The notes beneath the pieces are model-generated. The model saw only the letters and a list, made by a program, of their open reading frames with translations, searched no databases and was not told the DNA's origin. From the IMG/VR virus record IMGVR_UViG_3300022591_000046, positions 1 through 31,099 of that record: a DNA stretch of 31,099 nucleotides, one strand, 5' to 3'. Position numbers and translations under genes: made by a program. Origin of the DNA: a virus. Positions 8,961 to 31,099 of this stretch are shown here, one piece after another. How positions within the stretch are numbered: the stretch's first letter is position 1; each line of letters opens with the position of its first letter.

Positions 8961-9978
8961 GAGCGGCATTGAGGTCGGCATTGAGCCAAAAGCCACACTT
9001 ACGACAGCGGTAGCTAGAGCCGTCTCTATTCCCTTTATAGACGTGACCACAATTAGAACACTTCTGCGACGTGTAACGAGCATCGACGAGCAAAACAGAC
9101 TTGCCGACGGCTTCGGTTTTATACCGCAGGAATTGTTCAAGCTGATAAAAAGCCCACGAGTTGATAAGCCCGTTGAACTTTCTACCCCGTCGTTTCTGCA
9201 CTCTGACCTTACTCAAGTCTTCGAGCGCATAGACTCCAAAGGGCAACGAAACAAGTTCCTTACTAATACAGTGGTTAACGTCAGTCACAAACCGAGTTTC
9301 CCGTTTACTCATACGCTTAAGCTTGCGCTTAGCGGAACGGGTGCCTTTGGACTGAAGCTCTGCGCGAAGGTGAGCATACTTCCCTCGCACGTTCTTAACC
9401 TGCTTTCCATTGAAAAAAGAGTTATCAGAACAGACAGCGATGTTTTTGATTCCGCGGTCGATGCCAAGAACTGCTCCATTGTCACCAGTCGGCACATTAG
9501 TAGACTCCATCGAGACGTGCAGGTAAAACCCTTTGCGATACGAGAGCGTAACGCTTTTCAGCGCCCACCCCAAATACCGCGAATAGCACGACGGAACAGA
9601 GAAACACGCTTTGATGCGACCGGCAATGGTAGCGATAGACGCAAAGCCTTCGTTGATTCTGATACGAGCGACACGATGGTTGTACCGCATAGCCGAACGC
9701 GGCTTCTTTTGTGGAAGCGTTTTGCATTTATCTCGCTTGAGAGATTCACAAGCGCAGTCTCTCGCACACTGCACGAGCGACGATGGAAGCGGAGAAGTAG
9801 CACGAAACTGGTGATACGTTCCTTTGTGATTCTCAACCTTATTCCACGAATGGTTATCAAAGCCCCACTGCGCCGAAGCGTTGAACGCTTTGGTGTACTC
9901 GTCCATCGTGGTAAGGAGCTTTTGAATATCCTCGTCGGTACAATGCAGCTTGAGGGTAATAGTGCGTATCACGTTCAT
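8887..9978 (-). CDS. tnpB: TnpB RNA-guided endonuclease
   Basis: 363 aa from ATG 9978 (MNVIRTITLKLHCTDEDIQK); a longer upstream frame runs through the element's left end and is unlikely to be translated. The RuvC-like catalytic residues are all visible: D174 in LGIDRGIKN, E253 in YALEDLSKV and D335 in NADLNAARN. A zinc finger (CSNCGHVYKGNRDGSSYRC, then RKCGF) lies between the second and third. Length and layout fit an intact IS605-family TnpB, an omega-RNA-guided DNA nuclease that helps retain the element. No serine or tyrosine transposase accompanies it, so movement would need TnpA in trans. It is antisense to all neighbours. Confidence 0.95.
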   Translation of the reverse strand: MNVIRTITLKLHCTDEDIQKLLTTMDEYTKAFNASAQWGFDNHSWNKVENHKGTYHQFRATSPLPSSLVQCARDCACESLKRDKCKTLPQKKPRSAMRYNHRVARIRINEGFASIATIAGRIKACFSVPSCYSRYLGWALKSVTLSYRKGFYLHVSMESTNVPTGDNGAVLGIDRGIKNIAVCSDNSFFNGKQVKNVRGKYAHLRAELQSKGTRSAKRKLKRMSKRETRFVTDVNHCISKELVSLPFGVYALEDLSKVRVQKRRGRKFNGLINSWAFYQLEQFLRYKTEAVGKSVLLVDARYTSQKCSNCGHVYKGNRDGSSYRCRKCGFWLNADLNAARNIAHDGTSNVSRLPVNQPNVACS

Positions 9979-10088
9979 ATATTGGGTTTGATAGATAATA
10001 AAGGTTATGTAACTATGGAAAAAGTAAAAGGAGGACAGGTACGGTCTCCTCTCCCAGCTATCGCAGGGAGTCTCCGACCTGAATTTAG

Positions 10089-10220
10089 ATGAATAATGAA
10101 CTAACCAAAGCACACGTAATACAATTCTTAGAACGTTTGATAGCGGAAGGAACCTGCGGCGATTACTCTGAGCAAGAGATACAAGAAAAAATAGACAAGC
10201 TGAGAAATGGTGAAAAATGA
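10089..10220 (+). CDS. Hypothetical helical mini-protein, 43 aa, displaced from its RBS
   Basis: Encodes MNNELTKAHVIQFLERLIAE and ends KIDKLRNGEK; helical and charged. No Shine-Dalgarno lies upstream (GACCTGAATTTAG is element end sequence), whereas AAAGGAGA is found on the other side of the TnpB element at about 8814. The stop TGA overlaps the next ATG. Probably a small gene whose initiation was disturbed by the insertion. Confidence 0.5.
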   Translation: MNNELTKAHVIQFLERLIAEGTCGDYSEQEIQEKIDKLRNGEK

Positions 10221-12078: not shown

Positions 12079-12214
12079 TAAAATGGATTGTAAGATATGT
12101 TCTTACTTCAGTGACGAGGTCTGCGAAGCCGGTTTAGACCTTAATGAGGATGGCACATGTCCCAAGTTCGTAAACTGGGCGATTAATAGAGCTATGCTCG
12201 GAGATAAAAAATGA
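12068..12214 (+). CDS. Cys-rich mini-protein, 48 aa
   Basis: AAGGTGAAATC precedes ATG. Encodes MRANKMDCKICSYFSDEVCE and GTCPKFVNWAIN: C-x2-C...C...C, probable zinc binding. The stop overlaps the protease start (ATGA). The duplicated leader upstream suggests this gene was inserted or rearranged here. Confidence 0.55.
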   Translation: MRANKMDCKICSYFSDEVCEAGLDLNEDGTCPKFVNWAINRAMLGDKK

Positions 12215-13464
12215 CAGATAAGGTATTTTATGAAACGAATGGTAGGGTCTATGGTATGGGGGCCCTGCGGGATAAACCACACGATGACGCTCCACGCTTA
12301 TTGAGTAGGGAACAAGAAGAAACTCTACCAGCAAGTTATATGATTAAGGATCTCACCCCGGTAGGTGACCAAGGCCAGGAAGGTAGCTGCACGGGTAATG
12401 CAGGAGACAACGTTTATAAAATCCGGGACGCCATGGTAACAGGGAAATTCGTTAACGGCTCACGGCAACAGCTGTATCAATGCGCCCTAGCTCACGACGG
12501 TAATCCAATGCAGGATGTCGGGTCCACATTAAGCACAATGGCATGGGTACTAGAAAATAAAGGCGTAGCACCCGAAACAGAGTTTCCCTACACCGCGCAA
12601 CTCGGCACGCCAGTACCCGCTAACGTACTCGCCGACGCCAAGAAACACATAGCAACCAAAGCAACACGCCTCGACGCCACCGACGAGAACGTCACAATAA
12701 CCAACATAAAAGCAGCCATTGCGCCGAACGCAGTGATCCAGTCAAGTTATCCCGTCATGTTCGGCTACAACTGCTATAATGAAATCTTTAGTGTAGGTTC
12801 TGACGGCAACGTTCCGATGCCATCTCCAGGGGAACAACCGGCGGGGGGTCACGCGAATGTTTTCATCGGCTACGACGACAACCACGCAAACCCCGACGGA
12901 ACAAAAGGCGCACTACGCTTTAAAAACAGTTGGGGTACATCATGGGGGGACAACGGCTATGGTTGGATGTCCTACTCTTATGCACTTGACACCGACGATG
13001 CAATGGGTGATTGTTGGGCCATCATCAACGAGAGTGACATCCCTATTACAGGAAACGTTACAGTCGCCTCTTCACCAGCTCTAAGCAGTACAGAACGCTT
13101 CGTAACAGGTTCAGATAACGCACTATGGGATCGAGCCCTGGGGGGTACAATATGGCAATCTCTAGGGGGGATTATAACCAGCGCACCAGCAGTTGCAACA
13201 CTACCCGGCGTACGAGAAGACGTCTTTGTTAGAGGAAACGACGGTGGGCTGTGGCAGTTAGCGTTATTCAGTGATGACACAACCTCACTCTGGAACAACC
13301 TAGGCGGCCACATTGACGCTACTAACCCAACCCCTAGCGCAGTATGGGAAAACCCAAATACTTTAGTTGTTGAAGTAATCGGCACAGACGGCGCTATATG
13401 GGAAAAGACGTGGAATGGCACGGCATGGTCCGGTTGGACTTCGATCGGGAAAACTCTGAAGTAA
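12211..13464 (+). CDS. Papain-like cysteine protease (C1 family) with C-terminal lectin-type propeller
   Basis: 417 aa. The catalytic set of the C1 family is present: Q54 (oxyanion) and C60 in DQGQEGSCTGN, H214 in GGHANVF and N239 in FKNSWGTSWGDNGYGW. Residues 1 to about 275 are therefore a complete protease domain without signal peptide or long propeptide. Residues about 280-417 repeat short strands (FVTGSDNALWDRA, VFVRGNDGGLWQLA, EVIGTDGAIWEKT), as in PLL/fucolectin-like beta-propellers that bind glycans. The upstream gene ends in the same repeat. A virion-associated enzyme that grips surface glycans and cuts protein is the likely role; a host-lysis function is an alternative. Confidence 0.85.
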   Translation: MTDKVFYETNGRVYGMGALRDKPHDDAPRLLSREQEETLPASYMIKDLTPVGDQGQEGSCTGNAGDNVYKIRDAMVTGKFVNGSRQQLYQCALAHDGNPMQDVGSTLSTMAWVLENKGVAPETEFPYTAQLGTPVPANVLADAKKHIATKATRLDATDENVTITNIKAAIAPNAVIQSSYPVMFGYNCYNEIFSVGSDGNVPMPSPGEQPAGGHANVFIGYDDNHANPDGTKGALRFKNSWGTSWGDNGYGWMSYSYALDTDDAMGDCWAIINESDIPITGNVTVASSPALSSTERFVTGSDNALWDRALGGTIWQSLGGIITSAPAVATLPGVREDVFVRGNDGGLWQLALFSDDTTSLWNNLGGHIDATNPTPSAVWENPNTLVVEVIGTDGAIWEKTWNGTAWSGWTSIGKTLK

Positions 13465-13638: not shown

Positions 13639-14172
13639 ATGACTAAACCCTGGGAACGCCTAAAAGCTAAAAAGGAAAGCTCCAAGGCTTACGAGGCGTT
13701 CTGTATTTATAGAGATCTAGGGCAAACCCGTTCGTGCGAGCAAGTGAGCAAAGAGGTAGCCAAAAATGCACATCATATCAGGAGGTGGAGTTCTAGATAT
13801 AACTGGGTCGAACGCGCGGCTGCGTATGATGATTACATAGCCGAAAAACAAAGGAAAAAATATGAAGCCCAGCTCGGGCGAATCAAAGACAAAATAACCG
13901 ACACTGGCGAGGCAGTCCTTAAAAAAACAACAGAAGAAATGCTCAGTGATAAACCAGGGGCGTATGCAGCTACTGAGCGGTTTACCGCCGTAGTAAACGC
14001 ACTATGGAAAGTTCACGGCTTGGATAAAACAAAAATTGAACACAGTGGGGAAGTCAAAACAGACGCTAAACTTTCAAATCTTAGAGAAACCCTCATGAGC
14101 GCCTTAACCCCAGAAGAACGTGCGAAGTTAGCCGCAAAGTGGATGGAACTAGCAGATGGCAACAGCGATTGA
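13639..14172 (+). CDS. terS: Terminase small subunit
   Basis: 177 aa from ATG 13639; a TTG at 13621 inside the palindrome could add six residues. The N-terminal part (EAFCIYRDLGQTRSCEQVSK, then HIRRWSSRYNWVERAAAYDD) is the helix-turn-helix with the W..RA.AYD signature of many phage small terminases, which bind the packaging site on DNA and feed it to the large subunit. A long central helix and a polar C-terminus follow (KAKLAAKW-type helices near 165). It overlaps the large-subunit ATPase gene by 17 bases. Gene order supports the call. Confidence 0.8.
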   Translation: MTKPWERLKAKKESSKAYEAFCIYRDLGQTRSCEQVSKEVAKNAHHIRRWSSRYNWVERAAAYDDYIAEKQRKKYEAQLGRIKDKITDTGEAVLKKTTEEMLSDKPGAYAATERFTAVVNALWKVHGLDKTKIEHSGEVKTDAKLSNLRETLMSALTPEERAKLAAKWMELADGNSD

Positions 14173-14947
14173 ACAGGAGATATACAGTCTTACTAAAAAT
14201 GAACTTAGAGCATTAGCATTATCCATCAGCCCCGTCCAGCTCGCTCTGACGCTCGGCATCAGTCCCGATCCGTGGCAAAAGGAAATTTTACTTTCAGAAG
14301 AAAAAAGAGTTATACTCAACTGCTCTAGGCAGTCCGGTAAATCGACTATAGCAGCCATACTCGCAATACACCACGCACTTAACGACCCAGGGTCGCTTGT
14401 ATTAGTGTTATCCCCTTCCCTCAGACAATCAGGTGAGTTGTTCAAGAAGGTTATGGGCTTCTATAAAGACTTAGGAAAACCCATAGAGTCAGAGATTGAA
14501 CAAGCCCTTACGTTACAACTAGCAAACAAAAGCCGCATCGTCTCACTGCCTGGCAAAGAGCAGACAATCCGAGGATTCAGTGGTGTTTCTCTCCTAATAG
14601 TAGACGAAGCCGCCAGAGTAGACGACGCGCTCTACTACTCAATCAGGCCCATGCTCGCCGTATCACAGGGTCGTATGATCCTACTCTCGACACCTTTCGG
14701 CAAACGTGGCTTTTTTCACCATACTTGGACGCAGGAAGAAGATTGGATAAAAATTAAGATAACCGCATACGAATGTCCTCGTATCTCAAAAGAATTTTTA
14801 GAAGAAGAAGAAGCTACGTTGGGTGAGTGGTGGTTTAGACAGGAGTACTGTGCAGAGTTTAGTGAGAACGTCGATGCTTACTTTTCAAACGACGAAATCC
14901 AGAACAGCATAAGCGACGAAGTTAAGCCTCTGTTTGGTGAACTATGA
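14156..14947 (+). CDS. terL: Terminase large subunit, ATPase half
   Basis: 263 aa. Walker A-like motif SRQSGKST (G61-K62-S63), Walker B LLIVDEAAR with D150-E151, and coupling motif LLSTPFGKRG are all present, with an adenine-binding DPWQKEIL near residue 37. This is the packaging motor ATPase. The gene ends at EVKPLFGEL, and the nuclease domain that normally follows in one chain is encoded by the next gene with ATGA overlap. It must work as a two-chain terminase or be joined by some recoding; nothing suggests the latter. Confidence 0.93.
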   Translation: MATAIEQEIYSLTKNELRALALSISPVQLALTLGISPDPWQKEILLSEEKRVILNCSRQSGKSTIAAILAIHHALNDPGSLVLVLSPSLRQSGELFKKVMGFYKDLGKPIESEIEQALTLQLANKSRIVSLPGKEQTIRGFSGVSLLIVDEAARVDDALYYSIRPMLAVSQGRMILLSTPFGKRGFFHHTWTQEEDWIKIKITAYECPRISKEFLEEEEATLGEWWFRQEYCAEFSENVDAYFSNDEIQNSISDEVKPLFGEL

Positions 14948-15621
14948 GCTCCGCAGCCGTGGAAGAAGTAACGGAAGAACCACGGTTGCAGCACCAAGCG
15001 TTTTACATGGGCCTCGACTTAGGACAGTCACGAGACTACACCGCGATCATAGTAGTCGAACAATTAGCTCTAGGTTCAGACGCAGAAGATAAAGAATACC
15101 ACATACGCTACTGTGAAAGGATGCAGTTAGGCACGAGTTATACTGAAGTCACAAAACACGTTAAAAGCCTTCTTGCTAGAATCAACGAACCCACTACGTT
15201 GATCGTAGATTCTACAGGCGTGGGGAGGCCCGTCATTGACGCACTTAGAGAAAGCGGCCTAACTCCGGTCCCGATCACCGTTCACGGCGGTCAGAACGTA
15301 ACCATCGACGAATCAGGGTGGCACGTTCCCAAAAGAGATTTAGTAGCAGCGGCCAAAGTCTTACTCGCTAAATCACAGCTCAAGATAGGTAAGACAATCG
15401 GATTCGCGGATGTGCTAATCTCAGAACTGCAAAACTTTCACGTGAATATCAACATCAACACAGGCCGTGACTCGTATGAGGCTTGGAGGGAGGGCGATCA
15501 TGACGACTTGGTATTTGCAGTATCCTTAGCGTGTTGGTGGGCCTTGAAACATCCAAAGAAGATAGAAGAACCCACGTATGTACCGAGAGAGATGTGGCGG
15601 CCAAACCCGCATAAGATATGA
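14944..15621 (+). CDS. Terminase large subunit, RNase H-like nuclease half
   Basis: 225 aa with the three acidic positions of the terminase nuclease: D25 in MGLDLGQSRDYT, D89 in LIVDSTGVGRP and D187/D188 in HDDLVFAVSLACWW. This domain cuts the concatemer during packaging. It starts by ATGA overlap with the ATPase gene and has about 20 extra N-terminal residues (MSSAAVEEVTEEPRL) of linker-like, acidic sequence. A 108-base gap follows, so it ends the packaging operon. Confidence 0.92.
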   Translation: MSSAAVEEVTEEPRLQHQAFYMGLDLGQSRDYTAIIVVEQLALGSDAEDKEYHIRYCERMQLGTSYTEVTKHVKSLLARINEPTTLIVDSTGVGRPVIDALRESGLTPVPITVHGGQNVTIDESGWHVPKRDLVAAAKVLLAKSQLKIGKTIGFADVLISELQNFHVNININTGRDSYEAWREGDHDDLVFAVSLACWWALKHPKKIEEPTYVPREMWRPNPHKI

Positions 15622-16994: not shown

Positions 16995-18347
16995 ATGGCC
17001 CTCGGAAAACGAAAGACCTCAGCGACCGTGGCAACGGCGGCGGGATGGCAACCGCCGTCTGATTGGCCCACCATCAGCGACTGCGCTCTTGGCAACATCA
17101 AACTGCTCGTCAACGATGGCGGCATGGCTACCTACGCCTTCACGTGCTCCACGACCAACGCCACATCCTACATGATCGACTGGGGCGATGGCACCGTAGC
17201 ACTCTACGCTTCAGGGGCGACAGCGCAGCACACGTATGTTGTTGGTGCTGGGCAAAAGTGCAGTCTTGGCTACTCGACATTCAAAGTCACCATCTCAGCG
17301 CCAAACGGCTATTTGAAAACGTTCTTAGTGGCCGCACACAACCTCGCCACAAACTACCAGTACGTGGGGATTCTAAGCGCGGTGATTCGCGCAACAAACC
17401 TAACATCGCTGGGTGGTGCGTTTTATGTCTCTGGCGTCTACTGCGCGCAGTTGGAAAGTTGCATCGTCAGCGACCCTATGCCGCTTTGCACTAGCGCTGC
17501 TACTATGTTTGACTATTGTTACTCCCTGCAAAACGTCAACGTCTCTGGTTTGACAGCGGTAACCACGGCGACGAGCATGTTCAACGCCTGCTACTCCCTC
17601 GAAACCGTTGATGTGAGCAAGATGACTGCGGTAGTCACGGCAACAACCATGTTCCAATCTTGCTACAGCCTGCAAACCGTTGATGTGAGCAAGATGACGG
17701 CGGTAACCACGGCGACGAGCATGTTCCAATCTTGCTTAAGTCTTCAAACCGTTGATGTGAGCAAGATGACGGCGGTAACCACGGCGACGAACATGTTCAA
17801 CGCCTGCTCAAGTCTTCAAACCGTTGATGTGAGCAAGATGACGGCGGTAACCACGGCGACGAACATGTTCAACGCCTGCTCAAGTCTTCAAACCGTCGAC
17901 GTTAGCGCGATGAAGGCAGTAACCACGGCGACGAGCATGTTCAAAAACTGCTTTGCACTCTCCGTACTAAACCTCGCAAACTTTGGATCGGTGGCGGCAA
18001 GCGTGCAATGTGACACGATGTTCCAAGGCTGCGAACAACTCACCACAATCACTATGCCCAACGCGAAAGTAACCACGCTCGGCGCACAGGGGGCAACAGG
18101 CAAACTCAACAAACTGGCGACCATCACGTTCAATGCCTCTTCACTTTTCAACAACGCCACAGCTCCACAGCTTGACATCTCGTACACCACACTCACCGAA
18201 GCACAGATACTTGCCATCATGAGCGCGTTACCGGCGGCAACTACCCAAACAGCACGCATAACCGGCGCTACCGGAGCTGCGGCGTTCGTGACGGATTATG
18301 TAGTTGGTGGAAAATATAACGGTTGGACGGTAAATTCAGCAACGTGA
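16995..18347 (+). CDS. PKD plus BspA-type leucine-rich repeat surface protein
   Basis: 450 aa. Residues about 30-80 contain a PKD-like signature (YMIDWGDGTVALY and AQHTYV). From about 170 there are six 24-residue repeats of the type MFNACSSLQTVDVSKMTAVT, the BspA/DUF285 leucine-rich repeat found in adhesins of bacteria and archaea and in some phage tail proteins. A further degenerate repeat (MFKNCFALSVLNLANFG) and a C-terminal cap ending GGKYNGWTVNSAT follow. GGGGGTTAACG precedes ATG. Likely a receptor-binding or host-mimicking adhesin; no signal peptide. Confidence 0.8.
   Translation: MALGKRKTSATVATAAGWQPPSDWPTISDCALGNIKLLVNDGGMATYAFTCSTTNATSYMIDWGDGTVALYASGATAQHTYVVGAGQKCSLGYSTFKVTISAPNGYLKTFLVAAHNLATNYQYVGILSAVIRATNLTSLGGAFYVSGVYCAQLESCIVSDPMPLCTSAATMFDYCYSLQNVNVSGLTAVTTATSMFNACYSLETVDVSKMTAVVTATTMFQSCYSLQTVDVSKMTAVTTATSMFQSCLSLQTVDVSKMTAVTTATNMFNACSSLQTVDVSKMTAVTTATNMFNACSSLQTVDVSAMKAVTTATSMFKNCFALSVLNLANFGSVAASVQCDTMFQGCEQLTTITMPNAKVTTLGAQGATGKLNKLATITFNASSLFNNATAPQLDISYTTLTEAQILAIMSALPAATTQTARITGATGAAAFVTDYVVGGKYNGWTVNSAT
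17505..17936 (+). repeat. Six tandem 72-bp repeats in the LRR gene
   Basis: Each 72-base unit starts with ATGTT(C/T) and encodes 24 residues. Units 4 and 5 are almost identical over their whole length (AGTCTTCAAACCGTTGATGT shared exactly), pointing to recent unit duplication and variable repeat number. Confidence 0.9.
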
Positions 18348-18649: not shown

Positions 18650-19848
18650 CGGATGCGCCGGGCATACAGTGGGTTCAAGGGACAGGCACTTGGACGCGGT
18701 TAGGGGCATTAGCGGGAATGACGCTTCCGCAGGCAATCGCATATTGCGACCAAACACCCCCATGGGTATATATGCGCCGTTTGAACCTACTTGATAATGG
18801 CGTTATCACGGCGATTCAAAGCAGTTATGGCGCTGGTTGCTATTCCGACACAGACAATACAAACGGTCAATGCATGGTTGACCTTGAAAGAGGGGAGTAT
18901 TTCACCGACTTTACTACCCCGAATACGTACAAGTGGTACGTCAGGCCAGCAGGTAGCAACTGGACGGTCAACGGTCAGAGCGTGGCATTTAAGACGCACC
19001 CGAACTTTGTCCGTAACGGTATCACAAAGGACAGGACGTTCTTTTCAGCTTATGAGGGGTATGTCTCAGGCATTGGCGGCAGCACTCCAAAACTCGAATC
19101 GAAAGCAGGAGTACAACCGACGACCGATGCGAACACACATCCAACGATAAACTCAACGTTCGCGAACTTCAGGACATGGGCGCATAACCGAGTTGGCGGA
19201 ACGGCGGACAAATGGGAGCTTCAAGATTACCTAAGTACCGCGTGGGTTCAACTCCTTTACCTTATAGAATACGGCGGCCCTGATGCGCAAACGTTGCTAA
19301 GTCCGGGCATAACGAACATGCATAACGACGCTGGCCCAAATCAGGCGTCGAATACCGGTCACACTTCAACTCTCGGAAACGCATCGGGAAGCGTACTGCA
19401 CACCTTTGACTATGTTCCGAGTGTCGCCCCGTTCACAGGCTATGCGATGAGTTATCGCGGTATCGAAAACTTTTACGGGAACGTGTTTAAATTCATCGAC
19501 GGAATCAACATCAAAGCGGACTATAATCCGTGGATTGCAGATCACGGTTTCGCGTGTGACACGTTCGCAAGTCCGTATGTTGATACCACACTAACGCTCC
19601 CCTCAACAGGCAACTACATAACGAATATCGCATTTACCACAGACTTTGATTATGGATTCCTTCCGTCAGCGGTAGGAGGCGTCGGCGGACTTTATGATCA
19701 GTACGGCTTGGCTACCGGAAACAGAATGGTTTTAAATTCGGGGTATTGGGCTTCGGGCGCAGGGGACGGGATGTTCTATACTTACAACTATTTTGCCTCG
19801 AAGTATCACGGCTACTACTTAGGCGGCCGACTGATATACATAGGCTAA
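18646..19848 (+). CDS. Tail protein with C-type-lectin-like C-terminus
   Basis: 400 aa, MTDAPGIQWVQGTGTWTRLG. The C-terminal third (YRGIENFYGNVFKFIDGINI, YWASGAGDGMFYTYNYFASK, YLGGRLIYIG) matches the look of the formylglycine-enzyme-type C-type lectin fold used by phage receptor-binding proteins, including variable proteins of diversity-generating retroelements. The mid part has QDYLSTAWVQLLYLIEYG, commonly seen upstream of this fold in phage proteins. ATGA overlap with the previous gene. Host recognition is the likely role. Confidence 0.65.
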   Translation: MTDAPGIQWVQGTGTWTRLGALAGMTLPQAIAYCDQTPPWVYMRRLNLLDNGVITAIQSSYGAGCYSDTDNTNGQCMVDLERGEYFTDFTTPNTYKWYVRPAGSNWTVNGQSVAFKTHPNFVRNGITKDRTFFSAYEGYVSGIGGSTPKLESKAGVQPTTDANTHPTINSTFANFRTWAHNRVGGTADKWELQDYLSTAWVQLLYLIEYGGPDAQTLLSPGITNMHNDAGPNQASNTGHTSTLGNASGSVLHTFDYVPSVAPFTGYAMSYRGIENFYGNVFKFIDGINIKADYNPWIADHGFACDTFASPYVDTTLTLPSTGNYITNIAFTTDFDYGFLPSAVGGVGGLYDQYGLATGNRMVLNSGYWASGAGDGMFYTYNYFASKYHGYYLGGRLIYIG

Positions 19849-19856
19849 GTAACACC

Positions 19857-21542
19857 ATGACCGCACCGCAAGACATGCCTCGACCGTGGCCGCTTCCTAA
19901 TGACCGAACGAAGTTTATGTCTCCCGATGTGGCTATGGCGCAGGTCTACGAGGAGATGGCACCGGCTCTTGTGCATCTTGAAGATAGTAACAACCTATTC
20001 TCGGTGTATTCAAAGTTTCTATATGACCAAGCGGTATTGACCGCACCTGCGGCAGCGTCGCAAAAAACCGTACAAGTTGACCCTACGTCTACGCTTAAAG
20101 TGCGGGAAATTGTTACGATGTGGAGTCCGACGTTTGTTGAGATGGCTCAGATACAAGCAATAAACGGCAATACGATCACGATGGTCAACGATTTAGTGAA
20201 CCCGTATGACACAGGCACGAAAGTCGTTGGCGGCAACTACTTTTCCGGTGATGTGATAGGGCAAATATCGACAGACTATGGCGAGACGTGGGGCGATGAG
20301 ATAGTGGTAATGCACATTGACGGTTCCATTTGTTACAATCCTGTCATGATGAGGTTTGTTGAAAATGGAGTTGAAACGATCCTTGTCTCAGTCACCACAC
20401 AGGTATCTACGGTTTCGGGGGCGTATAGAACATATTACTCAACTAAATCGGTTGACGGTGGGTTAACGTGGAGTGCACCATTTCAGATACCAGTCCCGTA
20501 TTTGGAGTGTGGCGGCCCCGCCGGTGCTGCCGACCCGATAATGCTGTCAAACGGCGAGATTATGCAAGCGGTGTACTTTGTAGGCGTCCCGAGTTGCTAC
20601 CCAAATCCCACGACCGGATTTGTACCTCATTGGAGATCTACGGTAATCAAATCTTCAGACTTTGGGAATACATGGACTGACCCTATTCCTGTTTTCCAAG
20701 ACGACGACCGACAGGTAAGCGAATCGGCGGTTATCGAACTCAAGACTGGGGGGATGTTCGGCGAGTACACTGGCAAAGTGTTAATGTTCTCGCGTGTTCA
20801 AGCAATGGGTAACGCGCTTAATCTAGCATCACCGGTCACTGCGGGAGATACGACAATAACACTCACGACAAGTACCGTTTTAGCCGGTGACGTGATCCTC
20901 TTAATGAACTCAGACACGGAGGCGTATGAGGAAATAGTCGTAGGTGAAGTCAACGGCGCGGTTCTTACTATTGCAGCGGGAGGAGTTGCACAAAACTCGT
21001 ATGTCGCAACAGCGCACACGATAGTTGCTCATAGATGGATAACCCATGTCTCAGAAGATTATGGTGAGACATGGACAGAAGGAAACACGTCAATGTTCCT
21101 CCGTTCACAGCCTACGAAACCCTCTCTTATCCGGCTTTTTGATGGGCGGATTCTTTTCATAACGGGCGGCCAAGTAGTCGCTAGTTCAAGTTCAGATTGT
21201 CCGAACTCCACTGGCGTAGTGTATTACATATCAGAGGATGAGGGAGAGACATTCACATGCGCGTATGTTCCGGTCCAACATGGAACCGACCCTATAACGA
21301 AATACGCATCTTCTCCGTATCCTGATACGGTATGTGTAAACAACAACCTCGTTACGGTATGGGCTAGTAATCATGGTGGGGGTCTAATGCCGCATTACAT
21401 TGCGAATATACTGGTTACGATCTCCCCGTTGTTAAGTCTCGGCCCCATTGTGGTTGACCCGCAAATAAAAGTCGAGGAGATCACCGCAACACAAGAAAAT
21501 GAAATTGATATAGTGCAGCAAATCGGATGGGATCAAGTATGA
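19857..21542 (+). CDS. Sialidase-like Asp-box beta-propeller protein
   Basis: 561 aa from ATG 19857, which follows the previous stop by 8 bases. Five Asp-box motifs (S.D.G.TW/F) occur at about residues 138 (STDYGETW), 198 (SVDGGLTW), 266 (SSDFGNTW), 399 (SEDYGETW) and 459 (SEDEGETF), the mark of a six-bladed sialidase/BNR propeller. A segment about 320-380 (TVTAGDTTITLTTSTVLAGD) looks like an inserted beta domain. The arginine triad and nucleophile Tyr cannot be assigned safely, so it may bind rather than cleave glycans. An upstream in-frame start overlaps the lectin gene and is less likely. Confidence 0.75.
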   Translation: MTAPQDMPRPWPLPNDRTKFMSPDVAMAQVYEEMAPALVHLEDSNNLFSVYSKFLYDQAVLTAPAAASQKTVQVDPTSTLKVREIVTMWSPTFVEMAQIQAINGNTITMVNDLVNPYDTGTKVVGGNYFSGDVIGQISTDYGETWGDEIVVMHIDGSICYNPVMMRFVENGVETILVSVTTQVSTVSGAYRTYYSTKSVDGGLTWSAPFQIPVPYLECGGPAGAADPIMLSNGEIMQAVYFVGVPSCYPNPTTGFVPHWRSTVIKSSDFGNTWTDPIPVFQDDDRQVSESAVIELKTGGMFGEYTGKVLMFSRVQAMGNALNLASPVTAGDTTITLTTSTVLAGDVILLMNSDTEAYEEIVVGEVNGAVLTIAAGGVAQNSYVATAHTIVAHRWITHVSEDYGETWTEGNTSMFLRSQPTKPSLIRLFDGRILFITGGQVVASSSSDCPNSTGVVYYISEDEGETFTCAYVPVQHGTDPITKYASSPYPDTVCVNNNLVTVWASNHGGGLMPHYIANILVTISPLLSLGPIVVDPQIKVEEITATQENEIDIVQQIGWDQV

Positions 21543-22305: not shown

Positions 22306-22695
22306 ATGACCGATATTGACCTTGTGAGCGGCACAGAACTGACGTTGAATATCACCTACCTTTCAAGTAAAACGTCTGCACCTATTAACCTAACCTTAAT
22401 CGAAAACATAGTTTGGCTGGTAACTTCAGGGTCAACGGTAGTCATACGAAAGCACCTTGTAGATAACTCGATTGTAATTATTGACCCTCTGTCGGGGACG
22501 TTTAGGATATTTATTCGTCATGGAGACACCGCTCCCGAAATAAATGAGTGGGGATTTACTGTAGGCTCAACAACTCTTGATAAGGTTTACTGGCATGAAT
22601 TGCGGCTTGTTTTCGCTGATGGTACGGAAGATGTCCCGAAATCATTTAGAGGCGAGTACAAAGTATATCTCACTAAATCGTGGGGTGTTGAATAA
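22306..22695 (+). CDS. Beta-sandwich virion protein, 129 aa
   Basis: Begins MTDIDLVSGTELTLNITYLS and continues with strand-rich sequence (SGTFRIFIRHGDTAPEINEW; YWHELRLVFADGTEDVPKSF). The layout resembles the N-terminal Ig-like domain of siphophage baseplate/BppU-type proteins. Its last base is shared with the portal start (TAATGG), so it is coupled to the portal. Confidence 0.5.
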   Translation: MTDIDLVSGTELTLNITYLSSKTSAPINLTLIENIVWLVTSGSTVVIRKHLVDNSIVIIDPLSGTFRIFIRHGDTAPEINEWGFTVGSTTLDKVYWHELRLVFADGTEDVPKSFRGEYKVYLTKSWGVE

Positions 22696-25214
22696 TGGCA
22701 CGTAAGACTACGAAAGTTACCCGATCCAAAACAACGAACCCCACCGCAGGTAAATCCCTCTTGGCGGAAGTAGGCGCAGTCGGTTTACGACAGTTCGGTG
22801 GATACGTCTACGAAGAGATACTCCCACAACTACAAGGCCAGAACGGCGTTAGAACATTTAAAGAGATGGCCCTTAACGACGCCACCGTTTCAGCCATACT
22901 CTTCGCCGTTAATATGTTCTGTAGACAAGTGCCAGTACGAGTATCACCAGCCGGAGCACAACCCACGAAAAACGACGCCTTAGCAACCACGTTTATAGAT
23001 CAGTGTTTACAGGACATGAGCATGAGCTGGCAGGACACGCTCTCTGAAGTACTCTCGATGCTTCAGTACGGCTGGGCGTGGCATGAAATAGTTTATAAGA
23101 TCAGAGGTGGCCCTGATACTGACGACCCCACTAAAAGGTCACAGTATAACGACGGGCGTGTTGGCTGGCGAAAGTGGGCATTGAGATCTCAGGACTCATT
23201 ACTTAGGTGGGATATTGATAATTATGACGGCACAGTTCGAGGTATGTTTCAACTCGCCCCACCACTGTACCAACTCACATATGTGCCAATAGAAAAATCT
23301 CTGCTTTTCAGGACGAAACCTGCTAAAGGAAACCCGGAAGGCGAATCGATACTTAGACATGCTTACACGTGCCATAGCGACGATACCGACGTCCTCACGC
23401 GATCTGGGTGGAAGAGCATAACTGAGATAACGCTTGATGATTCAGTAGCCACACTCAATCCAGAAACAAACGAACTATTCTACCAGCAGCCTACTGAGCT
23501 GTATTCGTATCCATATCACGGTGAGATGGTGCATGTATCATCTAGATTCTTAGATATGCTCATAACGCCAAACCACAACGTCTGGGTGCGGCACGCACAT
23601 ACCGATGAGTGGAAGATGGAAGAAGTTGCCGATGTTCCGGTTACAGCTCACTACAAGCGCGATGCTGACTGGAGCGGGGAGGAAAGGGAATATTTCACAC
23701 TCCCAGCAATCACTGTTCAGAATGGTGGATTTGGTGGAGAACGGGAACACCCAGATAAAGAAATACCGATGGATGACTGGCTGCGTTTCTTTGGAATATG
23801 GATCGCAGAAGGACATACATACAGAGGAAAAACTGGAAAGCGACAGGCAGTAGTTTCAATTACACAGAAAAGATCGGGTTCACAGTTTGAGGACATACAA
23901 ACATGGGTAAACGCATTAGGCTTTAAGGTTCAAGCTAACGATAGGCACGATCATGAATATGCTGACGATATTGTAAACCTCAGAATTTCGTCGTTACAAC
24001 TTTATGAGTACCTAAAACAATTCGGCAAGTCGCACGACAAGTTCGTTCCGCAATTCATAAAAGAACTGCCGCCTAGACAAATACGAATTTTCCTTGATGC
24101 GTATTATGCAGGTGACGGGACATACGGGACTACCAAGAGACACGACCATTACGCTGATAGAGACTATCGCAGGACGCCTTACAGCTTTACTGTGTCAAAG
24201 CGATTAGCAGACGACATCAGCGAGTTAATATTAAAAGTTGGTAACTGTCCGTCGCTTGCATGGAAGAAAGGAAACGGATTTGGAGCGGGCATCTGGCGCA
24301 CCACTGAAGGTAAACGATTTGCTAACGGTTGCCGCCCGTCAAAGTATGAGCTAGTTGATTATCACGGCGACGTATATTGCTTGACGGTTCCTAAACACCA
24401 CCTTATTTACACACGGCGCAACGGCAAGTCGTGTTGGGGGGGTAATAGCTGGTACCGTAAGAAAAATATTGAAGAGATGGAAGCGGTAGGAATTGAACGG
24501 GATCTCGCAGGCTACCCGATCATACGCGTACCCGAGAAAGTATGGAACCGCAGCAGCCTTGAAGACCAGGCTTCTTTCGCTAGCTTCGAGAATATCTCTA
24601 AAGGCATCCATAGAAACGAATCAGAAGGTTTAATTTTGCCTAGTTCAGTCGTCACCGTAGAAGATGGTGTAGGCGGCGTCACTGCGGTGCCTGGCACCTA
24701 CAAATACGACGTCCAGCTCATAACCGCTGGTTCGAGAAGACAGTTCGACACGAACACGATTATTAACAGGTATAACTACGACATCGCCCGTGTGATGTTG
24801 GCAGACGTTATCATGATCGGCGGCTCTGATGTAGGTTCGTATGCGCTCACCACCAAAAAATCTGAGATGTTTATTATCGCTCTCGGAGCTATTTTAGATT
24901 CAATCGCTGACATCATCAACTCTTTCGCTATTCCAAGGCTCATGCACCTCAACGCCTTTCCACAATTATCAGGAAACCCACAAGTCCAGTTCGGGCCTAT
25001 TGCTAAACAGGACATACAACAACTCGCGCAATCACTACTGTTCCTACAACAAGCAGGCGCAGAACCCTTCGGCCCCGGCTCAGATGAGTTACAGAAGTAT
25101 ATCTTCGAAGAAATGGACTTGCCCGTCAAGCAGAAAGTTCCACAGTGGGAGAACCCCAACGCTGAGGAACTTGAACAACCCGGGACGCAGAGTGAGGAAG
25201 TAGAAGGAGCTTGA
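22695..25214 (+). CDS. Mu-like (DUF935-type) portal protein interrupted by an intein
   Basis: 839-aa precursor, 480 aa after removal of residues 226-584. Portal features: LNDATVSAILFAVNMFCRQV, SWQDTLSEVLSMLQYGWAWH, then RTKPAKGNPEGESILRHAYT before the intein and SWYRKKNIEEMEAVGIERDL, AGYPIIRVPEKVW after it. NPEG.SILR.AY..WY.KK is the hallmark region of the Mu gp29/DUF935 portal family, which forms the dodecameric DNA gateway. The C-terminus (FGPGSDELQKYIFEEMDLPV) is also typical. It follows a baseplate-like gene and precedes the protease fusion. Splicing is needed for a working portal. Confidence 0.9.
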   Translation: MARKTTKVTRSKTTNPTAGKSLLAEVGAVGLRQFGGYVYEEILPQLQGQNGVRTFKEMALNDATVSAILFAVNMFCRQVPVRVSPAGAQPTKNDALATTFIDQCLQDMSMSWQDTLSEVLSMLQYGWAWHEIVYKIRGGPDTDDPTKRSQYNDGRVGWRKWALRSQDSLLRWDIDNYDGTVRGMFQLAPPLYQLTYVPIEKSLLFRTKPAKGNPEGESILRHAYTCHSDDTDVLTRSGWKSITEITLDDSVATLNPETNELFYQQPTELYSYPYHGEMVHVSSRFLDMLITPNHNVWVRHAHTDEWKMEEVADVPVTAHYKRDADWSGEEREYFTLPAITVQNGGFGGEREHPDKEIPMDDWLRFFGIWIAEGHTYRGKTGKRQAVVSITQKRSGSQFEDIQTWVNALGFKVQANDRHDHEYADDIVNLRISSLQLYEYLKQFGKSHDKFVPQFIKELPPRQIRIFLDAYYAGDGTYGTTKRHDHYADRDYRRTPYSFTVSKRLADDISELILKVGNCPSLAWKKGNGFGAGIWRTTEGKRFANGCRPSKYELVDYHGDVYCLTVPKHHLIYTRRNGKSCWGGNSWYRKKNIEEMEAVGIERDLAGYPIIRVPEKVWNRSSLEDQASFASFENISKGIHRNESEGLILPSSVVTVEDGVGGVTAVPGTYKYDVQLITAGSRRQFDTNTIINRYNYDIARVMLADVIMIGGSDVGSYALTTKKSEMFIIALGAILDSIADIINSFAIPRLMHLNAFPQLSGNPQVQFGPIAKQDIQQLAQSLLFLQQAGAEPFGPGSDELQKYIFEEMDLPVKQKVPQWENPNAEELEQPGTQSEEVEGA
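23370..24446 (+). other. Intein with LAGLIDADG-type domain, unusual C-terminus (in the portal)
   Basis: 359 aa in frame. Starts CHSDDTDVLTRSGWKSITEI (block A), block B TPNHNVWVRH, LAGLIDADG-like helices WLRFFGIWIAEGH (about residue 137) and IFLDAYYAGDG (about 240), and ends YTRRNGKSCWGGN before extein Ser. Cys1, terminal Asn and +1 Ser are present, but the usual penultimate His is Gly. Its end (RRNGKSCW) and block organisation resemble the phosphoesterase intein (RRNGKTLW), so the two share ancestry. Confidence 0.9.
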
Positions 25215-25215
25215 G

Positions 25216-28200
25216 ATGGCTACTGATAAGACGTATCCATCCAACCGACCGGAGAATCCAACAGGCAAGCCAAAGCAACCGTCACGAGAAGCGGCTGAAC
25301 GCGAGAAGGAAACTGCCGGTAAACCTGCGGCCAATTACACTATTGATTATATCCTCGCAGCAATCGACAAAGCCGAGAAAAGCTTACCTGCATGGCTTTT
25401 TAAAGAAATCAAACAAGAGGCTATTCCTTTAAGCGGCGCTAAAGCACGGTGGGCCCGCGCAGCAAAGCAAGGTCTTGAATCTTTACCCCCGCGTCATGTT
25501 CAATCACTCGGCACGCAGGCCCAGCAAGGCACAACACCCTGGGATGACTTCGGCGAGAGAGCTCCGTATGCTGAGTCGTCTATGCAGCAGTACACTCAAG
25601 AGTATTTAGATTCGTTGATGTATCGCATCAAGAAAAAACTACTCGATTCAAATTATCAATACGTCTGGGAACAAATACACAATCACGCCAAATCATCAGC
25701 AGGTGGCAGGGCAAGCGGTCGAAGTAAGAAACAAAAGAGAGTTGACGAATACAAAGCAGACCCCGCTACAACCGAGGACTTTAAGGCCATGCCCAACTCA
25801 GAGCTCACGACGGCGTGGCTTAGATTGCATCAGCGGTATAACAAAGCCAAAAAGAGTCGTAAAGCAGTCGGTCAATACGTCGCTGCCGCCTCTGTTGCGA
25901 TGAAGGAAGCAGACCGCCGGGGATTGGCGTATTCAAAGACTAGTCCGTTGGCAGTCGCGGCGAAAGCGTACTCATTACCAGCAAAACCAATAGAAGCATC
26001 AGAAGACCTAGCCAAACGCGCTGCGGAGTCCGCTGCTGAAGATGCCAGAATAGCAAAAGAACTCCTTGTAGAAGAGCTAGAGAAGACCAACGCTAAACTA
26101 GTGGACTATTTGACCCAAAAGCTGCCTCGCACCGATGTCATGCTGATTCCTGACTTCATATCTGTGGTTGGAAGCACCGTAAAAGACTCTGATGCCAAAG
26201 AACCGAATGATCTTGATGTGTTATTCCGTGCGGAGCACGACGACTCAGGAAAGAACTTCTTAGTGCAATCCGAGAACGTGGGCATACAAGTTCGGAACAT
26301 ACTCGACCCGGACAAGTCTAAAAAACTACACTACATAGACGGCCCACAAGGAAGTCATGCTGATTATGTTCCTTTGTATGATTTAGTTTTAAGACCGAAG
26401 AAAGAAATAGAAACGAAAGTTGTAAAAGATCAGACAGGCCCCGAACGTTTCTATCCCGAGGGAAGTATTATACCCGCGATGCTTGGCGGGTTAGTTGACG
26501 AGAGCGATATTGAACTTGCTAAATCAGTCTCGTTAGGTAAACGGTTCGCAGTGGAAAAGCCAACCACCAAGATGACGACACAGAACTTCTCCTTTAATCA
26601 ACTCTGGCCGTGGGTAGAAGAACAACTTAAAGCCGGAGCGGAGTTGATCGGGGAAGTTAAGAGAGATGGATACCGCTGCATAATCACCAAAAACGGAGAT
26701 ACGGTAACGGTATGGTTTGAGGACTCTAATCAGGACAGGTCACGCGCGTTACCGAACTTAGTGGCAGCAATTAAGAAGATGCCACAAAAGAACTTTATCC
26801 TCGATGGTGAGATGCTTGCCACATGGAAGGGTAAGTTTGTCCCACGCACGCAACTAATCGGCATACTCACCAAACAAGAGTTTGAATTTAATCCAATTTA
26901 TTACGCCTTTGACTGTCTTTACCTTGATGGCACCGACCTATCAGGCAAGCCATTGAAAGAACGCCTAGGCTCTTTGAACTCTCTAAAGAATTCATTGAGC
27001 CCTCAGTTCTTTAAGATCGAGCAGCCTAAACCGATTAAAGACCAATCATCTATGAACGCCGTAGGCAAATGGGCAAGTAAGCAGCCGGGTTCGGAGGGCA
27101 TGCTAGTCAAAGATACAACCCAACCATATCACTTCGGCGGTTCTGACTCATGGGCGAAGCTCAAGGGCGTCGTCGAATTAAAAGTATTAGTAACGAAAGT
27201 TAACAAAGTTAAAAACGGGTTTACCTACTCGTGTGCGTTAACCGAAGGCAACCTTACACCGTATTCAAACGTAGTGGACTATGAGGGTAAAAAGGTCGTG
27301 GATCTCAGTAAAACATTCGTCACCCCTACACAAATGGCGAAAGAAGGCGATACGCTCAATGTACGCATCGAAGAACTTATCGTTATGCGAAATCCTGCGG
27401 AACCCAATTTACTCTCTCTCGCCTGGGGCAAGCCGACTGCGGTGGGGCCGGACTCGGCGGAACCAAACACTGCGCTCCAAGCGGTTGCTATCGCCAAACG
27501 CGGCGCTATATTAAAGCAGGAAATTAAGAAAGCTGATGTAGCTTCTTACGTGGGTAATAATCCACTAGTCACGTTCGTATTTCCCTCACCAACAGCCGCC
27601 GAAGCAAGTAGAGGTACAACAATGATTTCAAGCCCTCTGCTTAAATCAACGTATCTTGATCCTTTAAATTTATCAAAAGATGATGTTGGAATCACGTACT
27701 TATCACCTGTTCACTACACCGACGCACACAACGCAACTCGTGACCCTACCGATCTGGAGGCAGTTAACTGGCTTGGTTACACGCTTCAGGAATTAGCATC
27801 TATTAACGCGCCGGTAACGGTGGGGATCGGGTCAGTTACGAAACATATCTTAGGTGATATTATCGACGTGGTTTTGCCACATCCGAATGATATTGTTAAG
27901 AAAGAAGATTGGAAGGGTGAAATCGTTCGTAAGTTGCGGGGGATTAATAACAAACTAGAAAGTGTTAGAAAAAGTGATCATAAACCGTGTGAAACTGGCA
28001 ACTGTGCGCCGCATAGAGTGACGATAACTAAAATGGACTCTGAAAATCATACTGTCTGCGGTGTTGTTTACGAACCTAATGTAATTGATACACAGGGTGA
28101 GTGGGCAAATGCAGATACGATTGCGAAGGCCGCAGATAACTACATGGCCACTTTCAGAAAAATGTCTGAAGAGCACCGCAAGAGCGTCAAGAGCGTACCA

Positions 28201-28395
28201 GTCCGTAGCTGGATAACAGACCAGGAGGGTTATCAAGGCGAGGGGAAACTTCGGACTAAGGTTAAAAAAGGCGCGTGGATGCTTTGTAGCCGCATCCAGG
28301 ACTCTAAATTATGGGAAGACATCAGTAGTGGTAAACTCAACGCGTATTCTATGGGTGGGCGTGCGACGAAAGTGAAAAGGTCGCCACCAGCATAA
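25216..28395 (+). CDS. NTase - ATP-dependent DNA ligase - UDG-like - XkdF protease fusion
   Basis: 1059 aa, start after GGAGCTTGAG. Residues 1 to about 290: unassigned helical and charged region. About 290-400: nucleotidyltransferase-like, with VVGSTVKDSD (G319-S320) and N-D332-L-D334-V. About 455-760: ATP-dependent DNA ligase with motif I EVKRDGYR (K482 for adenylation), motif III DGEM (D530-E532), IIIa YYAFDCLYLDG, IV EGMLVKD (E627, K632), V WAKLKG (K648, K650), then an OB-like part. About 776-885: FVFPSPTAAE...YLDPLNL...VTVGIGSVTKHIL, like a family 4/5 uracil-DNA glycosylase. About 945-1059: XkdF putative prohead serine protease (VCGVVYEPNVIDTQGEW, KKGAWMLCSRIQD, AYSMGGRATK). A repair-plus-maturation polyprotein is inferred. 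Confidence 0.85.
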   Translation: MATDKTYPSNRPENPTGKPKQPSREAAEREKETAGKPAANYTIDYILAAIDKAEKSLPAWLFKEIKQEAIPLSGAKARWARAAKQGLESLPPRHVQSLGTQAQQGTTPWDDFGERAPYAESSMQQYTQEYLDSLMYRIKKKLLDSNYQYVWEQIHNHAKSSAGGRASGRSKKQKRVDEYKADPATTEDFKAMPNSELTTAWLRLHQRYNKAKKSRKAVGQYVAAASVAMKEADRRGLAYSKTSPLAVAAKAYSLPAKPIEASEDLAKRAAESAAEDARIAKELLVEELEKTNAKLVDYLTQKLPRTDVMLIPDFISVVGSTVKDSDAKEPNDLDVLFRAEHDDSGKNFLVQSENVGIQVRNILDPDKSKKLHYIDGPQGSHADYVPLYDLVLRPKKEIETKVVKDQTGPERFYPEGSIIPAMLGGLVDESDIELAKSVSLGKRFAVEKPTTKMTTQNFSFNQLWPWVEEQLKAGAELIGEVKRDGYRCIITKNGDTVTVWFEDSNQDRSRALPNLVAAIKKMPQKNFILDGEMLATWKGKFVPRTQLIGILTKQEFEFNPIYYAFDCLYLDGTDLSGKPLKERLGSLNSLKNSLSPQFFKIEQPKPIKDQSSMNAVGKWASKQPGSEGMLVKDTTQPYHFGGSDSWAKLKGVVELKVLVTKVNKVKNGFTYSCALTEGNLTPYSNVVDYEGKKVVDLSKTFVTPTQMAKEGDTLNVRIEELIVMRNPAEPNLLSLAWGKPTAVGPDSAEPNTALQAVAIAKRGAILKQEIKKADVASYVGNNPLVTFVFPSPTAAEASRGTTMISSPLLKSTYLDPLNLSKDDVGITYLSPVHYTDAHNATRDPTDLEAVNWLGYTLQELASINAPVTVGIGSVTKHILGDIIDVVLPHPNDIVKKEDWKGEIVRKLRGINNKLESVRKSDHKPCETGNCAPHRVTITKMDSENHTVCGVVYEPNVIDTQGEWANADTIAKAADNYMATFRKMSEEHRKSVKSVPVRSWITDQEGYQGEGKLRTKVKKGAWMLCSRIQDSKLWEDISSGKLNAYSMGGRATKVKRSPPA

Positions 28396-28432: not shown

Positions 28433-28864
28433 ATGGGTATAGAAAGTGATTGGAGGGGTTACCCGATCGGGACGGCCCAGATAGCAGACGGAGCAATAAC
28501 CGCAGCCAAACTAGCAGCGGGAGCAGTAACGCCAGATATAGCAAACGCGTCAATCACGAACGCGATGTTAGCGGCCAACGCCGTGACAGAAGCAGTTACC
28601 ACAGCAGGAACGTTTACGACTGCATCAATAGCAGCAAACGCAGCAATAACGGGATCACAATTAGCGGCAAACACAATAGCCGAGTCGAATATTACTGCCA
28701 AGACAATTACGCACGTATCATTGTCAGACACGGCAGGAGTTCTAGGTTCCCAGCTCGGCGCTGGCACAACGCACGTGCTTACAGGAAGCCTGACGTACCA
28801 ATCAACTACCGGTCCGCTGCTACTGTGGCAATCTCTTCAAGGACTGCGAGCTCGAGACGTATGA
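28433..28864 (+). CDS. Repeat-type tail-fibre-like protein, 3' end altered
   Basis: CGGAGGTTTAAATCAA precedes ATG. Residues 13 to about 100 are degenerate repeats of (A/D)GAITAAKLAAGAV, SITNAMLAANAV, SIAANAAITGSQLAANTI type, seen in phage tail-fibre shafts and some head fibres. After about residue 118 the composition changes (PLLLWQSLQGLRARDV) where another frame becomes clearly coding, so the last 25 or so residues are probably not native. Expected length may have been longer. Confidence 0.55.
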   Translation: MGIESDWRGYPIGTAQIADGAITAAKLAAGAVTPDIANASITNAMLAANAVTEAVTTAGTFTTASIAANAAITGSQLAANTIAESNITAKTITHVSLSDTAGVLGSQLGAGTTHVLTGSLTYQSTTGPLLLWQSLQGLRARDV

Positions 28865-30188: not shown

Positions 30189-31099
30189 GTGGGTAGCGCT
30201 AGCGATAAAGATATTTATGAGCTCACTGAACTCGAGATTCCAGACGTATCATACGTAGCAGCAGGCGCTAACCGCAAGACGTGGACTGTTATTAAATCTG
30301 CTGAAGAACTAGAAAAAGCAGAGCTAGAGAAATCCGGCGGCTGTGAAAAAGTCAGATCCAACTGCATGTCGATGAAAGAACAAGCAGGGGAATCCGGCAA
30401 ACAAGCAGAGAAGGATTGCGCTAAAACGGTAGCGGCTTGCGAGAGGATGAGTAAGTCTGCCGATTCTGTCGATAAAGCCTCTGGTGATGAAGAAGATGAC
30501 GAGGACGAAGAAGACCCGACCGATGCAATCACCGGCGCGTGGCGACTTATAGCTCCTTATAAAGACGAACTAGCTGTTGGACTTATCGCAGCGTTCGCAG
30601 CTGCACTCAAAGCAACAGGCAAAGATTTTAGTTATGGTTATCCAGCTCCCGAAGCGGAGCTGTCTGATGAATCTGAGGATGACGAGGAGGCAAGTAAGAG
30701 TGTGAAATCAGAAAGTGCTAACAAAAGCGTTCAGGCAACAGGGCTTCCACTTGCCGACCCGGGCACTCCGTGGGATGCAGGAAAAGCCAAAGCCGCCCTT
30801 AACGACTGGGCCGGAGATGACATGGGCAAGTACGCACGTGCTTTCCTCTATTATGATGGCTCCGGCAAAAAAGGCGGTTGTAAACTCCCGATAGCGATGC
30901 CGATTAACGGCACTCTTAAAGCAATCCCTAATGCAATCCGAGCGGCTAAAGGCCGGTTTAATCAAACACAGGCGATCCCAGCAGCGGAAAGAGCGCGGAT
31001 TCAGTCTATTCTGAATGGGTATTCAAAGAAATTAGGCTGGGATGCGAATACTACCAAGACAGAAAAATCAAGTTCACCCCTCACTTTGGAGGGTGGAGA
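30189..31099 (+). CDS. XkdF C-terminal continuation / prohead protein, runs off the right edge
   Basis: Open frame from GTG 30189 (no clear Shine-Dalgarno) to the window end, 303 residues visible. Residues 9-30 (IYELTELEIPDVSYVAAGAN) carry the 'I.E(V)S.V..GAN' signature that follows the SMGG.A segment in ordinary XkdF proteases. A long acidic, Lys-rich linker follows (GDEEDDEDEEDPTD). Near the end TPWDAGKAKAALNDWAGDDM and YYDGSGKKGGCKLPIAMPIN are a domain commonly appended to phage prohead proteases or capsid proteins. It is therefore the detached second half of the protease chain, possibly leading into a scaffold or capsid. Confidence 0.7.
   Translation, partial: MGSASDKDIYELTELEIPDVSYVAAGANRKTWTVIKSAEELEKAELEKSGGCEKVRSNCMSMKEQAGESGKQAEKDCAKTVAACERMSKSADSVDKASGDEEDDEDEEDPTDAITGAWRLIAPYKDELAVGLIAAFAAALKATGKDFSYGYPAPEAELSDESEDDEEASKSVKSESANKSVQATGLPLADPGTPWDAGKAKAALNDWAGDDMGKYARAFLYYDGSGKKGGCKLPIAMPINGTLKAIPNAIRAAKGRFNQTQAIPAAERARIQSILNGYSKKLGWDANTTKTEKSSSPLTLEGG

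Follow-up and report, generated by a model that had tools for sequence, protein, structure and literature searches.

A virus gene that joins DNA ligase, nucleotidyltransferase and glycosylase-like domains to a predicted head-maturation protease

Why should a protease that is expected to mature a virus head carry a DNA ligase in the same chain? The question is raised by one gene in the IMG/VR virus record IMGVR_UViG_3300022591_000046, of which positions 1 to 31,099 were analysed (31,099 nucleotides, hereafter the window). The gene occupies 25216..28395 on the plus strand, starts with ATG and encodes a protein of 1059 amino acids that contains, from the N- to the C-terminus, a helical part, a predicted Pol-beta-type nucleotidyltransferase (NTase), an ATP-dependent DNA ligase, a divergent domain of the uracil-DNA glycosylase (UDG) superfamily and an XkdF protease. 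A preliminary description made from the DNA letters had reported a single frame of 1059 codons with these four domains adjoining the portal gene, and this holds: the frame runs exactly from 25216 to 28395, the portal gene ends at 25214, and the residues pointed out (K482, D530, E532, E627, K632, K648 and K650 in the ligase, G319, D332 and D334 in the NTase) are all present. The four domains are supported by Pfam matches or by relatives-only profiles, which were built without the window sequence and then matched to it with E-values of 2.9e-35 (NTase), 2e-112 (ligase), 3.9e-35 (UDG) and 7e-28 (XkdF). In 200 shuffles of these bases no open frame was longer than 168 codons, against 1059 for the fusion, and a ribosome-binding site AAGGAG (25204..25209, +) overlaps with the last codons of the portal gene. 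The TGA stop of that gene, at 25212-25214, ends one base before the ATG of the fusion. In our preferred reading, to which we give about even odds, a tailed virus whose host is probably a methane-cycling archaeon has this protein as its head-maturation protease, with an N-terminal DNA strand-repair module that is taken into the prohead.

The XkdF (Peptidase_S78_2) domain is encoded by 28021..28374 (+), and its Pfam match covers residues 936-1053 (E 1.7e-25; 95 bits against a cut-off of 24). D958, H987 and S1045 are conserved, and the last two are invariant in the alignments, with His in 50 of 51 and Ser in 48 of 48 relatives ungapped at these positions. Exactly one XkdF match was found in each of the 14 records searched, and the fused copy therefore appears to be the sole XkdF; in 13 of the 14 it belongs to the fusion frame or to a split part of the fusion, and in locus L032 (L and G numbers are our own labels) it is a separate gene. 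A mixed XkdF alignment was also tried as a scan query and was dropped as too divergent. In several public phage records XkdF proteins are labelled 'DNA methyltransferase', for example ANS02374.1 in KX456206 (L014). The matched part of the proteins so labelled in Lactococcus, Rhizobium and Pseudomonas is XkdF, located at the expected head-protease position, and since both gene position and matched part fit XkdF the label is treated as a probable propagated misannotation.

The ATP-dependent DNA ligase (26539..27471, +) was recognized by Pfam, alignments and profile, and consists of an adenylation domain at residues 468-650, with K482 as nucleophile, and an OB-like region extending to about residue 752. 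DNA_ligase_A_M of Pfam matches residues 468-650 (E 2.1e-24), and the ligase residues listed above fall in invariant columns when other phage ligases are aligned with it. Motifs I, III, IIIa, IV and V are found together with the nucleophilic lysine and an OB-like region conserved in sequence; motif VI was not clearly found in the window ligase. The NTase (residues ~290-396; 26083..26403, +) contains G319-S320, D332, D334 and D389, and is predicted from these motifs and from the relatives-only profile. The window region alone has no Pfam match; NTP_transf_2 is matched by 9 of 44 NTase relatives (best E 1.8e-5), G319, D332 and D334 of the GS and DxD motifs are invariant among the 44, and the third Asp, D389 in the window, is found in 44 of 52 relatives. 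The NTase gave no match to PDB sequences, and an AlphaFold model of the window region had a mean pLDDT (predicted local distance difference test) of 50, with values below 45 over most of the domain, and was not used for fold search; as there was no usable model, the assignment to the Pol-beta type is a prediction from sequence only.

Upstream of the NTase, good model confidence was obtained only in a helical domain at residues ~185-255 (25768..25980, +), in which 'AWLRLxQWY' is kept in the aligned relatives. Still closer to the N-terminus is a motif, LPAWLFKEIKQEAIPLSGAKARWAR, at residues 51-83 (25366..25464, +), with a second, degenerate copy at residues ~139-172. By regular expression the motif is found in about 9 of 65 relatives, with the consensus (A/K)xxLPxWxxxxIHxxAxPxSGGKARWR in the window protein, L016, L017, L145, L149, L158, L167, L179 and L208, and it is doubled also in L017. 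It is possibly a targeting or cleavage signal.

Is the fusion an isolated case? Used as a direct query, the whole window protein found no close virus relative, its N-terminal 454 residues had no match in phage records, and region 655-935 gave chance-level matches only. An alignment of phage ligases led to a coherent set of 18 virus contigs with 43-54% identity to the window ligase, well apart from ordinary phage ligases, which show at most about 33%. The reading frames of the 18 contigs encode the same giant fusion, and scans with alignments of the NTase and of a phosphoesterase (PE) domain present in relatives gave more. A profile census of the fetched loci contains 65 non-redundant multi-domain fusion proteins (no shared identical 60-residue stretch), some of them truncated where their contig stops, and almost all come from environmental virus contigs. 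NTase-ligase-UDG-PE-XkdF is the most frequent order (27 of 65), NTase-ligase-PE-XkdF is found in 9, the order is swapped in L136, and the ligase was not detected in L188, L162 and L192. In five unsaturated pairs of relatives dN/dS (Nei-Gojobori) is 0.05-0.21 in every module, as low in the enzymes as in the protease, and all modules are thus under purifying selection. An assembly join of two genes is excluded because the same fused order recurs on dozens of contigs, and a chance resemblance is contradicted by the match of the relatives-only profiles to the window at E ~1e-28 to 1e-112; no point in favour of either was found, and we regard this explanation as refuted.

The genes around the fusion are those of head assembly. 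The gene order of relatives is terminase, portal, in some cases one extra gene, the fusion, a scaffold-like gene that begins with VSFVPxGAN, a phrog_673 head scaffolding protein and a phrog_1005 major capsid protein. A portal of the same family lies upstream in 32 of the 47 fusions with at least 1.5 kb of upstream sequence, and the same domain order beside portals in other genomes, which the preliminary description had proposed to look for, thus recurs. The window fusion sits between the portal and the scaffold-like gene, and the capsid gene would be located beyond the contig end.

The PE domain has no match in the window fusion or elsewhere in the window by profile search, and the window protein is the sole fusion among the 65 with NTase-ligase-UDG-XkdF and no PE, which is why it was missed at first. 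Its only Pfam match is LigD_N, in 7 of 9 members, the best at 4.6e-5 and below the Pfam cut-off, and the PE profile found no match among PDB sequences. For an AlphaFold model of the PE (pLDDT 78) the seven best Foldseek matches in the PDB are all LigD phosphoesterases (E 3.4e-7 to 8e-5), a search of BFVD gave a good match to one viral protein only, and the PE-site columns H56, D58 and R60 are kept in 54 of 54 ungapped sequences. At the level of the predicted fold the domain is confirmed as a LigD-type 3'-phosphoesterase. The relatives thus share PE fold and site residues with bacterial LigD (polymerase-PE-ligase) and with archaeal stand-alone PEs (PDB 3n9b, 3p43, 5dmp), and like LigD have a ligase in the same chain. 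They differ from LigD by a Pol-beta-type NTase in place of the archaeo-eukaryotic primase-polymerase (AEP), which gave no match, and by the added UDG and virion protease. The window protein itself is not a LigD, which combines primase-polymerase, PE and ligase and acts with Ku, as it has neither a PE nor a Pfam primase-polymerase match.

A LigD-like set could also serve to join genome ends: delivered with the DNA, the module would trim, fill and ligate the incoming linear ends in a manner resembling LigD-dependent non-homologous end joining, leading to immediate circularisation. Phages Omega and Corndog, according to a passage in PMC7719229 citing Pitcher 2006, code for Ku and employ the LigD of the host in infection and in circularisation of the genome, and NTase, ligase and 3'-phosphoesterase form the core common to the independent systems described below. 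However, no Ku was found in 18 records searched, which are fragments, some of them 50-100 kb long, and end joining needs no glycosylase; the explanation is unlikely.

The UDG-like stretch of the preliminary description does contain a UDG-superfamily domain, recognized by profile and by the Pfam matches of relatives; it spans residues ~760-917 (27493..27966, +) and has kept the LPHP motif and lost parts of other motifs. The window region alone has no direct match to PF03167 or any other Pfam family, and the corresponding domains of relatives match PF03167 at 2.4e-20 to 3.1e-10. Among solved structures the UDG profile matches type-4 enzymes and UdgX (best 2.4e-14). Although these are the best solved matches, the domain is not a family 4 UDG; for the Fe-S cysteines of that family, no Cys column is common to at least five aligned UDG domains. 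Motif 1 reads FPSPT in the window against GASPG in relatives, and the next loop has a deletion of two residues. Because the motifs are degenerate, base excision by the window copy seems doubtful. The short-patch base-excision set proposed earlier is therefore right in so far as a repair set is present, and incomplete in the window, where the PE is missing and motif 1 of the UDG is degenerate.

Similar modules are found outside the family. The virus ANMV-1 of methane-seep archaea, published in 2015 (PMC4372165), has a portal gene (PF06381) directly followed by an 866-residue NTase-ligase-PE protein, AJP62006.1 (KP703175), which is annotated as a ligase, goes unmentioned in the text of that article, and differs from the fusions in having no XkdF or UDG in the chain. 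L124, on contig 77 of the archaeal genome G056, which belongs to the same order as a metagenome-assembled genome (MAG) of Methanothrix, encodes ligase, PE and a DUF2213 head-maturation protease between portal and capsid genes, and a stretch resembling an NTase (GG..NDAD) was read by eye only. UDG was not detected in ANMV-1 or L124. An in-frame TAG upstream of the ligase-PE-DUF2213 part of L124 may be pyrrolysine, a stop or an error. The comparison suggests that a repair module has been attached to head maturation independently, with at least two protease families (XkdF and DUF2213). Since NTase, ligase and PE are the core common to the independent systems, the set is better described as LigD-like healing and sealing of ends, to which a glycosylase may be added, than as short-patch base-excision repair.

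L032 is a further variant, in which the separate XkdF gene is closely followed by a polyprotein of 2592 codons that contains inteins, ligase, D12 methyltransferase, PE and metallo-beta-lactamase. Inteins are located in the ligase region of both L031 and L032, several are found in the L032 polyprotein, and an HNH domain lies in its PE region. With XkdF separate in L032 and absent from the chain of ANMV-1, the fusion is not obligatory, which would suit an action in the infected cell instead of the particle: XkdF would free itself in the cytoplasm or on the surface of the assembling prohead, the enzymes would act on replicating or packaging DNA, and the fusion would only couple expression and dosage. 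Repair enzymes are also common as ordinary phage genes. On the other hand the fusion is of wide occurrence, and a similar module was gained by DUF2213, a second protease family; moreover, prohead proteases normally work inside the prohead, and an attached domain would therefore be brought along. We consider an action in the cell improbable, although slightly less so than end joining.

The host of the window virus is likely an archaeon of the phylum of the Methanothrix MAG, with the caveat that MAG contigs can be misbinned. Among 84,980 species genomes scanned, one close match was found, the contig of this MAG, with the same arrangement as the fusion; PE relatives are present in 2 of 394 genomes of the phylum, and a TnpB encoded in the window shares up to 65% identity with copies in the phylum, compared with 33-37% with the plasmid matches listed. 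For other contigs of the family the hosts could be different.

In the packaged-repair reading, the XkdF domain would carry the whole chain into the prohead together with the scaffold and cut between the domains during maturation, so that the folded enzymes remain enclosed with the DNA. Within the virion or right after injection the PE would clean 3' ends, the NTase add a nucleotide, the ligase seal the nick and the UDG remove uracil, and the genome would be mended ahead of all viral gene expression. The window copy, with ligase and NTase motifs kept, the PE missing and glycosylase activity probably lost, would mainly be a nick-sealing ligase. In its widest form the proposal is that tailed viruses of methane-cycling archaea pack a complete kit for strand and base repair (glycosylase, end-cleaner, nucleotide adder and ligase) in each particle as a self-processing capsid-protease fusion, that genomes damaged while surviving for long outside slow-growing hosts are repaired in the particle or on entry, and that virion-borne repair was reached independently with at least two protease families; to this we give somewhat less than even credence.

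Several points weigh against packaged repair. Domains, order, synteny and conservation are observed, and it is from these that we infer prohead entry, cleavage, retention with DNA and repair; the head-maturation function of XkdF is itself a prediction, and a prohead protease burdened with a large N-terminal part could hinder assembly. The fusion is split into two open frames in L141, L144 and L145, which may be frameshifts or real. No AP (apurinic/apyrimidinic) lyase or endonuclease was identified, and there is therefore a gap in the base-excision route. In the provirus-like copy G017 the ligase is dead (nucleophile K to L), with UDG and XkdF kept. In ligase motif I more than half of the relatives have N for D (KxNG), and in motif III the E is replaced by D in many (LDCD-like), so that about half of the relatives may have a changed substrate or have lost activity. 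A different substrate could also point to a counter-defence effector of the polyvalent-protein kind, whose injected domains would modify or repair nucleic acid attacked by the host, possibly RNA, or erase nucleotide signals. Some relatives contain further modules of the types found in conflict proteins (2H/LigT phosphoesterase, methyltransferases, metallo-beta-lactamase, PAPS-reductase-like); L217:4881-9011, for instance, has a PAPS-reductase-like, possibly DndC-like, domain followed by ligase and PE in one frame. The commonest combination is nevertheless a coherent DNA-repair set, and the window ligase retains the DNA-ligase motifs KxDGxR and LDGE, which makes counter-defence the least probable of these alternatives after a chimera. 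Repair, circularisation, action in the cell and counter-defence are not separated by any result here.

Multi-domain proteins packaged in heads have a precedent in the polyvalent proteins of phages and conjugative elements, including MuF-domain fusions, as described in passages of Iyer et al. 2017 (PMC5512222). As there, the fusions have at least two effector domains per chain and are encoded among the head genes of portal-terminase viruses; in these passages the proteins are expected to travel with the DNA and to be processed by a peptidase in the chain, and Pol-beta NTase, 2H and methylase modules are described. The fusions differ in that the anchor is a head-maturation protease (XkdF or DUF2213) and not MuF or portal, and in that the hosts appear archaeal. 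A word search of the article gave no occurrence of glycosylase or LigD, and no DNA ligase is named in those passages. The mycobacterial LigC/Prim-PolC complex (PMC5663958) likewise joins ligase, short-gap filler and glycosylase in an excision-repair set, of separate cellular proteins with an AEP-type polymerase and not in one virion-linked chain. Among the base-excision repair enzymes of giant viruses, PolX of PgV, a polymerase-lyase-ligase according to a passage in PMC5537341, also unites virus-encoded repair activities in one protein, in a eukaryotic virus, with other domains and no protease fusion. In the open-licence literature searched, nothing relevant was found on a prohead protease with a fused ligase or glycosylase. 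Packaging of multi-domain proteins along with phage DNA is thus known, and apparently new are the head-protease anchor, the ligase-glycosylase-phosphoesterase set and the archaeal setting.

As for the other genes of the window, the portal protein (22695..25214, +; Portal_Mu-like by Pfam, 480-residue extein) is interrupted by a LAGLIDADG-like intein of 359 residues (23370..24446, +) with Cys at its start, Gly-Asn at its end and Ser at +1. The large terminase subunit is encoded by two adjacent open frames (14156..15621, +), and the scaffold-like gene (30189..31099, +), which begins with DVSYVAAGANRKTW and resembles the VSFVPxGAN gene of relatives, runs off the contig. Between it and the fusion is a short tail-fibre-like repeat protein (28433-28864, +) that is not at that place in the relatives examined. 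Near the terminase genes are a papain-family cysteine protease (12211-13464, +) and a BspA-type leucine-rich-repeat protein (16995-18347, +), and BNR (sialidase-type) repeats are located at 19746-21542. A calcineurin-like metallophosphoesterase (739-2748, +), with a zinc ribbon and its own intein, is distantly similar to the small subunit of archaeal DNA polymerase II and to SbcD. TnpB (8887-10113, -) is encoded on the opposite strand from the virus genes, and an open frame of 402 codons runs antisense to it.

Current annotations of these genes ('DNA ligase', hypothetical protein) conceal the fusion family. Fusion to the protease that matures the shell suggests a repair kit packed next to the genome, and if the enzymes are packaged, viruses of prokaryotes carry their own DNA repair in the particle. 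This could explain how virus genomes last through hydrolysis and breakage where hosts grow very slowly, in sediments and digesters. The head protease would then be a general loading dock for enzyme cargo, perhaps usable for loading proteins into capsids, and the 65 members, with their shuffled phosphoesterase, glycosylase, methyltransferase, 2H and metallo-beta-lactamase modules, would be a ready set of constructs.

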